From a virus: a stretch of DNA of 52,977 nucleotides. The notes under the pieces were generated by a model. It had not been told where the DNA came from. It worked only from the letters and a program-made list of their open reading frames with translations, and did not search any database. Made by a program: the position numbers and the translations under genes. Position 1 is the stretch's first letter; each line of letters opens with the position of its first letter. Location of the stretch: the IMG/VR virus record IMGVR_UViG_3300020438_000057, positions 1 through 52,977 of that record. One strand, 5' to 3'. Of the stretch, positions 3,070 to 6,824 are shown one piece after another.

Positions 3070-3680
3070 TATATTCTGTCCTTGTGCATTTGTATTGAAT
3101 TGAATGATATTGAAATACGATCAGTATCTGATAAATTTTGTTCGACTTCATGTCCTCTGTTACTAGGAAATAAAATTAGTCTTCCTTCAACAGGCTCATA
3201 ATATACAGAACTCCATTGATGAAGATGTTCTCTATGTTCATTATCGTATATGGGTTTATGATGCTGATCAGGCACATTTAAAAATTTTATTCTTCCACAA
3301 TTTTCAGGACTCTGTACATAATACACACCACTCCATAGTGCATTAGGGTGTGTGTGAAAAGTATTGTATGCATGTTTTGGTGATACATTTGCCCACATAC
3401 TTTCTACAGTTAGAGGCCAATCAGAATTATAACCTTCTTCTATTGATAAACTCTTTTGAGCATCATTAATAGTATTCGTTATTTTGCTAAACTCTTCTCT
3501 AAAATGCATAGTTATAGTACTATGCCAACCTTGTTTATTAGAGCGTCCTACACCATCTTTATCTTCTTCTTTCCATTTGTATATATCACTAATCAATTCA
3601 CGATTCAATTCTTTTGAATTTTCTATATCAAAATAAAAGAAAGGAATAGAAAACCAAAATTCCCTTTGTATTTCAGACAT
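3069..3680 (-). CDS. 2OG-Fe(II) oxygenase, TIGR02466-like
   Basis: 203-residue putative iron/2-oxoglutarate dioxygenase. The double-stranded beta-helix signature is visible: HTHPNALWSGVYYV (first His pair at 109/111), a distal His in FPSNRGHEVEQ (about 177), and the co-substrate Arg in DRISISFN (188). These match the TIGR02466 family common in marine phages. Substrate unknown; in phages such enzymes have been proposed to act on nucleic acids, proteins or sugars. It is one of three such enzymes in the window and overlaps gp33 by one base. Confidence 0.8.
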   Translation of the reverse strand: MSEIQREFWFSIPFFYFDIENSKELNRELISDIYKWKEEDKDGVGRSNKQGWHSTITMHFREEFSKITNTINDAQKSLSIEEGYNSDWPLTVESMWANVSPKHAYNTFHTHPNALWSGVYYVQSPENCGRIKFLNVPDQHHKPIYDNEHREHLHQWSSVYYEPVEGRLILFPSNRGHEVEQNLSDTDRISISFNSIQMHKDRI

Positions 3681-4158: not shown

Positions 4159-4587
4159 CTATTTTTTAAACTTGTCGTTCATAGATTCCAGTACACTATC
4201 AATATTAGGTTCTTGTCCGTTGGGATCATATTTACATTGATATTCATTAGGACATTGGCCCTCTACTACCAATGTGTAAGTATCGTTAGCACCTTTATAG
4301 AGACAAACTTGATCACCATTCTTAGCAGTTCTTCTCTTATATCTTCTGCATGTGATATACTTGGGATCTTCACGTTTGCCTAATCTCTTCTCTTGCTCCC
4401 ATGTCCAATCACTAAACTTCTTCATGTAACATGTGAAGCACTGTATTATGTTAGGCGTTTTATTCTCATTATTAAATCTATCACTCCAAGCATAATTTGG
4501 AATGAGAAATGCTAACAATAAAATTATTTTGATTGAAAGTATTAACGAAAGCCTGCGAATAGATGACTTGTATTGAAAACGAACCAT
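4159..4587 (-). CDS. exported Cys-rich protein, unknown
   Basis: 142 residues from ATG 4587; a longer TTG start at 4635 is unlikely. A basic N-terminus is followed by a hydrophobic signal segment (about residues 15-33, IILLLAFLIP) with a likely cleavage near AWS/D. The mature part has several cysteines (CFTCY, YITCRR, QVCLY, GQCPNE, YQCKY) and is otherwise charged. It overlaps the 3' end of the next upstream gene by 46 bases. Probably periplasmic with disulfides; no family recognised. Confidence 0.6.
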   Translation of the reverse strand: MVRFQYKSSIRRLSLILSIKIILLLAFLIPNYAWSDRFNNENKTPNIIQCFTCYMKKFSDWTWEQEKRLGKREDPKYITCRRYKRRTAKNGDQVCLYKGANDTYTLVVEGQCPNEYQCKYDPNGQEPNIDSVLESMNDKFKK

Positions 4588-5036
4588 GCGAACCAACCTA
4601 GTAATGCAACTATAACTCCAATACCTACAGTGCAAATTATTATATTTAAAATCTTTTCTCTTTGTTTCTCTCTAGCATAAACCATCTCTTGACGTTCTTT
4701 GCGAATCTTACCTTGCATTCGAATCAGTTCGTCCCATGCAGATGCTCCATGTGTAAACATGATGTATTGCTTGAGTTCGTATTCCATCTCCTCTGCTTTT
4801 TTCTTGGCGGCAAAGGCGTTCATTGCTTCTTCTTCTATAGATGAACCATTGAAAACTTTTTTATAGAATGGTGGATTCTTTGCATTCTTCTCTGCTTGAT
4901 TAACATCAGAAATAGCACCCATCCATCTACCAATATCGCCGTACATAGACTCGACATCTTTACCGAGTTGTATACCTTTCTTAATTGCTGAGAATGCAGT
5001 GCCTGCAATGGCCATTGCTGATACTGGATCTATCAT
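4542..5036 (-). CDS. conserved marine-myovirus membrane protein
   Basis: 164 residues: short hydrophobic N-terminus (PVSAMAIAGTAFSAI), charged middle with NPPFYKKVF and ASAWDELIRM, a helical K/E/R stretch, then one C-terminal membrane helix (about 128-155, IIICTVGIGVIVALLGWFAW). I recognise this as a family widespread in T4-like cyanophages and pelagiphages, of unknown role. It lies 86 bases downstream of a late box TATAAATA (5122-5129), so it is probably a late gene. Confidence 0.75.
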   Translation of the reverse strand: MIDPVSAMAIAGTAFSAIKKGIQLGKDVESMYGDIGRWMGAISDVNQAEKNAKNPPFYKKVFNGSSIEEEAMNAFAAKKKAEEMEYELKQYIMFTHGASAWDELIRMQGKIRKERQEMVYAREKQREKILNIIICTVGIGVIVALLGWFAWFVFNTSHLFAGFR

Positions 5037-5121: not shown

Positions 5122-5129
5122 TATTTATA
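5122..5129 (-). promoter_or_regulatory. T4-type late promoter box TATAAATA
   Basis: Exact TATAAATA on the minus strand directly after the T-run of the tmRNA terminator and 86 bases before the ATG of the 164-residue membrane protein. T4 late genes are started at this box by gp55 sigma with gp33. Confidence 0.6.
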
Positions 5130-5163
5130 AAAAAAAAGAGCATCAGTGGTAACTGACACTCTT
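5129..5163 (-). terminator. rho-independent terminator of the tmRNA transcript
   Basis: Minus-strand stem AAGAGTGTCAG / CTGATGCTCTT with a 5-base loop, followed by nine T residues. It closes the transcription unit that begins at the tmRNA promoter (5752-5783) and separates it from the late gene downstream. Confidence 0.85.
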
Positions 5164-5340
5164 TTCATATTTAGTGTGGGAGGGACTGGCTTATACCCTC
5201 AACTAACACAACAAGATAAGCATATCTTTTTTAGTGTTAGAACTTACTTCCGTCATGTGGTGTTGACGATGTGATCTTGTATGACTAGCCCTTATTTCTA
5301 AGTATTCATCTTTCAAAACCTGGGTACCACCCCTAAGTAA
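5164..5340 (-). other. structured non-coding trailer between tmRNA and terminator
   Basis: About 175 bases without an ORF. It contains a strong hairpin at 5203-5240 (CTAACAC/GTGTTAG outer stem, AAGATA/TATCTT inner stem) and a GTCAT/ATGAC pairing around 5250-5290. Near 5320-5336 is GGGGTGGTACCCAGG, which resembles the T-arm segment of the tmRNA acceptor piece (GGGGGCGGTACCCA), and each is followed by GAATACTT. I see no tRNA. It could be a tmRNA processing trailer, a degenerate duplicate of the acceptor piece, or a separate small RNA. Confidence 0.45.
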
Positions 5341-5750
5341 TCAAGTTCACTCCTCTTGTCGGTAGAGTTCTTCCTTGCACCACGTTTTTTCTCCGTCGAG
5401 AAAAAATCTGTAATTCTGTGAGAGTGTTTCTGTTCCCAAGTACACTCTCTAAACTCGGTGCGATTAAGCCGCTAGTGCATAATCCACAGGTGCAATGTCA
5501 TCGTTTGCATTTAGTTTAATGTTCTCCACTAACCTACTACCTACCTGTCGATCCTATTTCGCCCCCATCAAGAATACTTGTTGATACGCCACTATCAAAA
5601 ATCTCTAAAGTATCTTACTACTCATGTCACAATTAAACGCAGACGCAGAGTTTGTGCTATGAAGGCGTAGTACTGAGCAAGTATTCTTGGTGGAGGCGAT
5701 GGGTACCGCCCCCATGTCCAGTCTAGTTTCATTTAGTCTCAACGAACTCT
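5340..5750 (-). ncRNA. ssrA: circularly permuted two-piece tmRNA (ssrA)
   Basis: tmRNA rescues stalled ribosomes and adds a degradation tag. Order on the minus strand: acceptor piece first (ending CGCCTCC-A-CCA, CCA at 5690-5688), intervening segment 5687-5567, then coding piece starting GGGGGCGAAATAGGATCGACAGG at 5566 (shown here only to 20: GGGGGCGAAATAGGATCGAC). The 7-base acceptor stem GGGGGCG/CGCCTCC pairs fully and has the G3-U70 pair of alanine identity. The tag frame 5508-5464 encodes ANDDIAPVDYALAA-stop, an alphaproteobacterial-type tag. The intervening segment is bounded by AGAATACTTG...CAAGTATTCT, which extends the stem for processing. AGAGTTC (5750-5744) can pair with GAACTCT (5370-5364), holding the two pieces together. 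Outer ends are inferred. The T-loop (GGCGGTA) is not the usual TTCGAAT. Confidence 0.93.
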
Positions 5751-5751
5751 T

Positions 5752-5783
5752 TATTTATAGCATATTGATTCGTGATTCGTCAA
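5752..5783 (-). promoter_or_regulatory. tmRNA promoter with overlapping late box
   Basis: -35 TTGACG (5783-5778), 18-base spacer, -10 TATAAA inside an exact TATAAATA late box (5759-5752). Two tandem copies of the 7-mer TGATTCG (plus strand 5766-5772 and 5773-5779) fill the spacer. The gene could therefore be read both early by host sigma70 and late by gp55. Confidence 0.7.
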
Positions 5784-5794
5784 GTCTTTTTTGA

Positions 5795-6172
5795 TTATTT
5801 TTGTGGAGTAAATATCTCCATTCCCCAACCATTACCTATGATACAGGCCCAATCAGCACTTATAAACTCTACTAAACTCCATGTTCCAGTTTCTTTGTTT
5901 AAACCGAATGCTATTGTAGTCTTCATCAATTCACCATTCTCACGTACTGAAACATTGCTCCAAGTCATGATAGGTTGTTCTTTCCATTCTTTTGTAAGTG
6001 TGTGTACAATAAAATCTGGATGCTGACATACAACAGGCTTCATTGCATTTGCTATCTCATCTTTTTCAAACATCTTGTGTAATTTTTTCAAGTCGGGCTC
6101 ATGTTCTCCCCATGACATACTACCACAACTAACATAAAACACAAACACTAATAAACTAAGATATTTTATCAT
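5795..6172 (-). CDS. secreted/lipoprotein-like protein, unknown
   Basis: 125 residues. The N-terminus MIKYLSLLVFVFYVSCGS is a signal sequence with a Cys at 16 that could be a lipobox (YVSC), although -1 Ser and -2 Val make it atypical. The mature part has two more cysteines (VVCQHPDF, WACIIG) and ends FTPQK. It overlaps the start of the upstream exonuclease stop by 17 bases. No family recognised; likely periplasmic or outer-membrane attached. Confidence 0.65.
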   Translation of the reverse strand: MIKYLSLLVFVFYVSCGSMSWGEHEPDLKKLHKMFEKDEIANAMKPVVCQHPDFIVHTLTKEWKEQPIMTWSNVSVRENGELMKTTIAFGLNKETGTWSLVEFISADWACIIGNGWGMEIFTPQK

Positions 6173-6824
6173 GATACTCTCCGTATAACTTTATCTTTTT
6201 TTGTGTAGATAGTATCCAATTGTCTCTCTTTTCTATAAATACTTGAGGACTCTCACCATCTACTGCTATGACTATTACAACTTGATCGATTGGTGTTTTT
6301 GTTCGTTCTTCATACATAACACAATAGGCAGAACCTTGTTGAAAATAATTCGTAATATATTCTTTCTTTTTAAGTTTTCTGGAAGTCTTAAAATCGATGA
6401 CGGAAAGCCTATTATTCCACTCAGCGATACAATCTACCCGTCCAGCGACTCTTAAATAATCTGAATAAAGGGTAGCTTCTTGAACTCTAACATTATTTAT
6501 ATTCTCGGAGAGTATGCCTTTTATAGTGCTGAAAGTTTCTTTGTCAGATGGCATGAACTTCTTTTCATCAAGTTCATTGTTGATAAAGTCTTCGCACATC
6601 TGATGTACTTTAGTACCTCGGCGTGATGCTTGAGTAGATATACGATTGGCCTCTTTTTCACCAACTCGTTGTCTCCACTCATAAATTGCTTTCTTATTGA
6701 AATGTCCTAATACTGTCGTTATAGACGGATACTTCTCACCACTAGGTGTAACATAGTATCTTTTACCATCTACAGTTTGAGTTTTGATTTCAGGTATGTC
6801 AATTCCTAGATGAGTAAACGTCAA
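6156..6824 (-). CDS. PD-(D/E)XK exonuclease, MGME1-like
   Basis: 222 residues. Nuclease core visible: KVHQMCEDF (His74 helix), GRVDCIAEW (Asp131), IDFKTSRK (Asp144, Lys146) and YFQQGSAYCVMYE, the order typical of the RecB/Cas4-like and mitochondrial MGME1-like exonucleases found in marine T4-like phages. Probably acts on DNA ends in recombination or host DNA breakdown. The start is TTG at 6824, overlapping the phoH stop (TTGA); no earlier or nearby in-frame ATG exists, and translation coupling to phoH is likely. Confidence 0.82.
   Translation of the reverse strand: MTFTHLGIDIPEIKTQTVDGKRYYVTPSGEKYPSITTVLGHFNKKAIYEWRQRVGEKEANRISTQASRRGTKVHQMCEDFINNELDEKKFMPSDKETFSTIKGILSENINNVRVQEATLYSDYLRVAGRVDCIAEWNNRLSVIDFKTSRKLKKKEYITNYFQQGSAYCVMYEERTKTPIDQVVIVIAVDGESPQVFIEKRDNWILSTQKKIKLYGEYHDKIS

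Follow-up and report, generated by a model that had tools for sequence, protein, structure and literature searches.

The tmRNA gene and its transcript

The DNA under study is a stretch of 52,977 nt from the viral record IMGVR_UViG_3300020438_000057, and the whole of it is called the window here. It comes from a T4-like myovirus, with genes for a gp32-like SSB, a helicase loader, DNA polymerase, UvsX, a DnaB-type helicase, PhoH and ribonucleotide reductase; the DNA polymerase is about 57% identical to cyanophage polymerases. On the minus strand, at about 5748-5419, the window encodes a permuted two-piece tmRNA of the alphaproteobacterial type, with a manA RNA behind it (Table 1). The tmRNA was matched by two Rfam covariance models, RF01849 (alpha_tmRNA; 94.6 bits against a cut-off of 50, E 1.5e-24) and RF04321 (tmRNA_permuted; 85.6 bits against a cut-off of 47, E 4.6e-15), and ARAGORN reported a tmRNA* at 5373-5780 with the tag ANDDIAPVDYALAA. 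The Rfam match begins at 5786 and extends into promoter DNA, so the 5' end of the RNA is probably near 5748; the 3' end given by ARAGORN, 5373, overshoots into manA, and 5419, given by Rfam, is the better end.

Table 1. Features at the tmRNA locus of the window and positions of the tmRNA-spacer element (TSE) in other viral loci
Feature	Position	Strand	Basis or remark
Upstream PD-(D/E)XK-type exonuclease, phrog_298	6156..6824	minus	annotation; anchor for syntenic relatives
-35-like box TTGACG of the tmRNA promoter	5778..5783	minus	read directly; 18 nt before TATAAA
TATAAATA, -10-like box and also T4-type late promoter box	5752..5759	minus	read directly
tmRNA acceptor piece	5688..5748, 5' end approximate	minus	ARAGORN, Rfam, stem counts; T-arm AUGGG/CCCAU, acceptor 3' strand CGCCUCC, ACCA
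tmRNA spacer, 121 nt	5567..5687	minus	between the CCA end and G1; expected to be excised at maturation
TSE, pseudoknotted RNA domain	5571..5687	minus	covariation, covariance model; 117 of the 121 spacer nt
tmRNA coding piece	5419..5566	minus	ARAGORN, Rfam; 5' acceptor strand GGGGGCG, mRNA-like part, 3' hairpin AGAGAGUGU/ACACUCUC
Tag reading frame ANDDIAPVDYALAA and stop	5464..5508	minus	ARAGORN
manA RNA, RF01745	5171..5403	minus	61.8 bits against a gathering score of 55.2, E 2e-13; directly 3' of the tmRNA
Intrinsic terminator at the end of the tmRNA-manA transcript	5133..5166	minus	15-pair stem and T run; fold z = -6.6
TATAAATA, late promoter box for downstream genes	5122..5129	minus	read directly; conserved in relatives
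Downstream gene phrog_32327, function unknown	4542..5036	minus	annotation
TSE behind manA, before a terminator	L135, L342
TSE after a small membrane ORF	L136, L345
TSE 5' of an Hsp20-like gene	L388 group
TSE 5' of a RecB-like nuclease	L366 group
TSE 5' of a small conserved ORF	L385 group
TSE beside tRNAs	L374, L387, L395, L401

A preliminary description of this DNA had recognised a permuted alphaproteobacterial-type tmRNA on this strand, and both ARAGORN and the alpha_tmRNA model, the latter proposed there as a check and matched above its curated cut-off, bear this out. It had placed the CCA at 5690-5688, upstream of a coding piece starting at 5566 (GGGGGCG), and both are found there, so that the acceptor piece precedes the coding piece with the spacer in between. 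The 7-bp acceptor stem, GGGGGCG/CGCCTCC, is paired at every position and includes the G3-U70 pair. The tag frame described there reads ANDDIAPVDYALAA and a stop, with an alanine resume codon at its start and a hydrophobic ALAA-type tail at its end, and the inverted repeat said to bound the intervening segment is real (AGAATACTTG at 5687-5678 and CAAGTATTCT at 5580-5571).

For comparison, the neighbouring exonuclease served to locate 80 related viral loci, and ARAGORN found a tmRNA beside the exonuclease in 69 of them. Among viral permuted tmRNAs we distinguished 33 stem sets with 21 different T-stems; 394 of 396 cells in the acceptor and T-stems were paired, and G3-U70 was retained in all 33. 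In the alignment of relatives the stems of the coding piece covary, and tags akin to that of the window (ANDDFAPVDYALAA, ANDNFAPVDYALAA) are encoded with synonymous changes. The conservation of acceptor stem and tag in related phages, which the preliminary description had wanted checked, was thus observed, and its view of a maintained gene rather than debris agrees with the constant position and the intact stems. Taken together, the comparisons support a phage-encoded tmRNA gene under selection. SmpB (PF01668) was not found in the 11 phage records searched, so the function of the tmRNA would depend on SmpB of the host. In the freshwater relatives L156-L202 the same position is occupied by beta-type permuted tmRNAs with tags such as ANDERFALAA, and the locus looks as if it were tracking the tmRNA type of the host.

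The promoter boxes are readable by eye, although a simple promoter scan did not list them, and the arrangement TTGAC-17/18-TATAAATA is kept among close relatives. At most 140 nt upstream of the gene, TATAAATA was found for 104 of 130 viral permuted tmRNAs, compared with 2.7% of random windows; it occurs together with a sigma-70-like pair upstream of 88 of the 130. A hairpin with a T-run is kept at the terminator position in relatives despite altered sequence. Of the promoter and terminator that the preliminary description had assigned to the gene, the promoter (TTGACG, TATAAATA) stands, but the terminator does not end the tmRNA directly: it is located at 5166-5133, past the manA RNA (5403-5171), which had been overlooked. 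A role in late infection had also been suggested. The late box is present, but a late-only role is too narrow because the sigma-70-like promoter overlaps the T4-type late box.

A folded RNA in the tmRNA spacer

The preliminary description had seen the repeat at the ends of the intervening segment and missed the structured RNA between them, to which we gave the working name tmRNA-spacer element (TSE). Terminal repeats of 9-15 bp are frequent in the spacers of viral permuted tmRNAs, also where there is no TSE; in the window the repeat doubles as the outer stem, P0, of this larger structure. Inside P0 lie P1 (CUC/GAG), P2, P3 (AGUA-GUAAGA-UACU) and P4 (UUGAUA/UAUCAA), and the loop of P4, GGCG, forms a pseudoknot with an upstream CGCC. 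The consensus runs P0 - P1 (3 bp) - AGUACnAs - GCC - UUYRUAG - P2 - ACA - nn - P3 (loop GUAAGA), followed by UUA - P1' - UUUAU - P4 (loop GGC, pairing with the upstream GCC) - P0', with a length of about 90-140 nt.

In the alignment of relatives, the spacer sequence of the window reappears in L135 and L136, where it lies downstream of manA. When viral contigs were scanned for the TSE with sequence patterns, 58 stretches were found. The final pattern was relaxed and imposed no pairing on P3, and all four P3 pairs were nevertheless present in 56 of the 58 stretches, for each of which full pairing has a chance of about 2%, many of the stretches being related and several near-identical, so that the counts are not independent events. 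Three pairs were found in one stretch, and the remaining one (L410) was a false match.

When 16 sequences were aligned with MAFFT, 95.7% of the cells were paired, 21 of 25 pairs changed on both sides, and 111 cells carried two-sided changes compared with 35 +/- 5 in shuffles, while slid controls paired at 31-43%. A hand-cut alignment was 99.4% paired, a value biased by construction; the boundaries of P0 were picked by eye, and P0, P2 and P4 consequently look more fully paired than they would otherwise. The test of P3 was free of this boundary bias; the evidence for P1 and for the pseudoknot depends on conserved anchors. Folding the spacer by MFE alone was uninformative (z = -0.1 and -1.1), and the structure came from comparison.

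A covariance model, R1, scored 94 bits at 5575-5683 of the window, which is one of its training sequences. Outside the training set it gave 87 bits for L384 and 44 bits for L402, and about 2.6 Mb of phage DNA held nothing other than a TSE that scored above 18 bits; the model is specific to the TSE. There is a single copy per record. A divergent form (ACATCACAACCCC...GGGG) occurs in L368, L371, L375, L377 and L381; it keeps P1, P3 and GCC and has no obvious P4, and on three records searched R1 gave it only 31-36 bits.

No match to the TSE was found in Rfam 15 at E up to 1-5. A plant microRNA model lying over it on the other strand was at chance level (E 0.085, 24 bits, cut-off 100). Similarly, blastn gave no convincing match in 50,697 phage records, R1 found no TSE in Melnitz, HTVC008M or C48C1, and the literature searched held no description of it. 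Without a family in Rfam 15, the TSE yet shows covariation as strong as that of accepted RNA families. By these comparative criteria it is an undescribed, strongly conserved folded RNA which marine phages place elsewhere too.

Positions of the TSE in other phages

The TSE was found in 51 distinct viral contexts, 15 of which are tmRNA spacers; the tmRNAs bearing it have four kinds of T-stem (ATGGG, TCGGG, CCGGG, TTGGG). Most copies outside spacers stand a short way 5' of a small gene or a tRNA (Table 1). In the sister phages L135, L136 and L342 it stands behind manA instead of in the spacer, and such shifts between sisters point to an autonomous module rather than to a part of the tmRNA machinery. 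As only a minority of viral permuted tmRNAs contain the TSE, it is not needed for tmRNA maturation in general.

Just 5' of a gene for an Hsp20/IbpA-like small heat-shock protein, the TSE was seen in L388, L389, L396, L400 and L403. The manA RNA has been reported upstream of ibpA chaperones too (PMC2864571), so tmRNA and chaperone genes occur next to both RNAs. In L391, where the TSE is on the minus strand with its core at 3554 of the reversed locus, it is located inside a tRNA array, between a one-piece tmRNA with the tag DEPLLMAA and tRNA-Lys.

It seems to us about an even chance that the TSE is a cis-acting regulatory RNA, the reading that we favour over a released RNA acting in trans. Where enough sequence was available, 23 of 32 copies outside tmRNAs had an RBS-preceded ORF within 150 nt on their 3' side, which is a cis position. 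The contexts are heterogeneous, comprising sites 5' of ORFs, tRNAs, tmRNA spacers and sites before terminators, and one mechanism may therefore not fit them all.

We consider it rather unlikely that the TSE is mainly a trans-acting small RNA, which tmRNA or tRNA processing would simply cut out as a stable RNA of about 100 nt. The many copies beside tRNAs or in tmRNA spacers, whose processing would free the TSE, are consistent with such a role, as is its movement between the spacer and the position behind manA in sister phages. Phage RNAs near tRNA islands are also known. GOLLD and ROOL (PMC12286853) are, like the TSE, structured phage RNAs of unknown function adjoining tRNA genes, although they are hundreds of nucleotides long and the shorter TSE has no Rfam family. 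In T4 itself, the species 1 and 2 RNAs (rnaC, rnaD) are stable RNAs processed from a tRNA-containing transcript. They were rejected as homologues of the TSE: rnaC and rnaD lack its motif, GUAAGAnnnnUUA, which was found only as a one-mismatch chance match outside them. Together with this, the frequent place in front of ORFs argues against a role mainly in trans.

The manA RNA behind the tmRNA

The manA RNA was described as a riboswitch candidate that usually lies in potential 5' UTRs (RF01745; Weinberg 2010, PMC2864571). The copy in the window resembles those described in scoring above the curated cut-off and in its setting, a marine T4-like phage, but its context is different. It is followed by a strong terminator and then by the late box, with no ORF, and so it is not a 5' UTR here. 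A chance match is ruled out by the E-value and by conservation, as manA trails the tmRNA in the close relatives of the window (in the alignment, copies below the cut-off included). It was also found behind the tmRNA in L070, L135, L136, L248, L249, L260, L290 and L328, and in L070, L136 and L249 a small ORF follows it. As a general partner of phage tmRNAs manA was ruled out, the pair being present only in the clade of the window and in a few others; of the manA copies sharing the core motif, most lie away from any tmRNA, which means that manA is no dedicated tmRNA partner.

Some close relatives (four by one count) have a tRNA-Gly-like gene with the unusual anticodon ACC exactly between the tmRNA and manA; we saw it in L126 (2258-2331), L128, L129, L130 and L134 (6427-6500).

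The terminator behind manA may control read-through. In a stronger version, manA and the terminator form a working switch in which a ligand sets read-through from the tmRNA promoter into phrog_32327, the endolysin gene and later genes. This would suit a riboswitch candidate (PMC2864571) with a terminator right behind it and a separate late promoter next. We nevertheless hold it to be improbable. The sole visible antiterminator pairing, between ACACU of manA and AGUGU of the terminator, is lost in L134, L135 and L136, whose terminators differ in sequence, and an antiterminator between the two elements was rejected, the pairing not being conserved among relatives; in L070 and L249, moreover, the small ORF takes the place after manA.

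Contents of the spacers

In viral permuted tmRNAs the shortest spacer has 3 nt and the longest 499 nt. Of the spacers that lack a TSE, 51 measure 100 nt or more, and 26 of these hold a small ORF, here taken as an RBS-preceded ATG ORF of which 28 codons or more lie within the spacer, whereas Markov shuffles give 1.0. Several of these ORFs form families across different tmRNAs; in one of them, MKNPLVxKxSxxMFxxYxxWSICAD, substitutions by codon position number 620/346/817. Both a TSE and an ORF are present in the spacers of L384 and L390. The small spacer ORFs are mostly membrane-like, and some extend into the tmRNA coding piece (L018, L352, L020, L046, L019, L021, L050, L114, L135, L003 and others).

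The segment of the permuted tmRNA that was thought to be discarded is thus reused by phages, for genes (26 of 51 long spacers without a TSE) or for RNA elements (15 distinct TSE spacers). Such cargo is easily overlooked: the spacer of the cultured phage Melnitz contains a small ORF that is absent from the annotated features of its record.

One could still regard the gene as an ordinary phage tmRNA, its spacer as neutral filler with an end repeat that merely aids processing, and the TSE and manA as coincidental neighbours. Viral permuted tmRNAs are indeed common, the length of the spacer is free, and end repeats occur without the TSE, but we find this reading very improbable. Its claim about the spacer is already largely refuted by the excess of two-sided changes in the TSE, which moreover exists as a complete domain in unrelated contexts, and manA stands behind the tmRNA across the clade.

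Relation to known phage tmRNAs and origin of the gene

The preliminary description had considered a two-piece tmRNA unusual for a T4-like phage. This does not hold, as the form has been published for the OM43 phage Melnitz and reported to be common in marine phages (PMC9004378); it is already known there and is not new in itself. The authors of the Melnitz study put the number of two-piece types in phages at 53, of which 50 are aquatic (PMC9004378). We found the alpha-type coding-piece start in at least 120 IMG/VR stretches, and the sole blastn match among isolates was the SsrA of Melnitz. The cultured SAR11 myophage HTVC008M carries an unannotated permuted tmRNA beside its exonuclease (L214, 7031-7372), with the short tag ANFNEYALAA.

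The tmRNA of the window shares with those of Melnitz and the pelagiphages (PMC9004378) the permuted order, the alpha type, a tag ending in YALAA and the synteny PhoH - exonuclease - tmRNA. In both Melnitz and the window an RNA of regulatory type lies directly 3' of the tmRNA. In Melnitz, whose tmRNA is an alpha-type two-piece one, it is a glutamine riboswitch (PMC9004378), which Rfam confirmed at the 3' end of the tmRNA, and in the window it is manA; the Rfam search of the window gave no match to the glutamine riboswitch, RF01739. The spacers also differ, that of the window containing the TSE and that of Melnitz the small ORF. Mycobacteriophage tmRNAs (e.g. McGee, PMC9583779) are phage-encoded too, in unrelated hosts, and are described there only as a single tmRNA gene.

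The earlier suggestion that the gene may come from the host was not borne out as a recent acquisition. That it is a recently captured host tmRNA gene, or debris of prophage excision, is hardly credible: the alpha-type model gives the best score and phage tmRNA lineages largely mirror their hosts, Melnitz excepted (PMC9004378), but the gene, as an alpha-type or a beta-type form, occupies the same place across a large clade of phages, it has a phage-type late promoter box, and its tag pattern was not found in the 84,980 species genomes scanned.

Proposed working of the locus

We think it probable that this marine T4-like phage has here a compact operon of non-coding RNAs, in which the spacer is the TSE and the TSE most likely acts in cis. 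A single transcript would start at the sigma-70-like promoter, the -10 box of which is at the same time a late promoter of the T4 type, run through the acceptor piece, spacer and coding piece of the permuted tmRNA and through manA, and end at the terminator. Expression could set in early, from the sigma-70-like box, and go on in the late phase from TATAAATA.

Going by homology with other tmRNAs, we infer that host tRNA-processing enzymes remove the spacer and leave a two-piece tmRNA, which would be charged with alanine through G3-U70 and, together with host SmpB, release ribosomes that have stalled and tag nascent chains with ANDDIAPVDYALAA. P0 of the TSE would be stacked on the acceptor stem. 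Acting in cis as a regulatory RNA that binds a ligand or a protein, the TSE could influence the folding and processing of the tmRNA precursor, and it would then be released as an RNA of about 117 nt.

A bolder proposal, which we put forward tentatively and with the chances somewhat against it, is that marine phages have in the TSE a regulatory RNA of a new class, pseudoknotted and binding a ligand or a protein. Placed inside the tmRNA precursor of the window, it would gate or sense the maturation of that precursor, so that ribosome rescue would be tied to an infection signal, and the excised spacer of phage permuted tmRNAs would be a place where small genes and RNA elements are generally carried as cargo.

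Here the tmRNA is packed with two other structured RNAs in a small cluster of non-coding RNAs. The TSE offers a concrete, testable candidate for the regulation of ribosome rescue in phages. We also noticed another recurring motif, CTTAATAAGCACGCGTGGGACCACGGTTAGTTCCACA, located upstream or downstream of the tmRNA in L070, L248 and L407.
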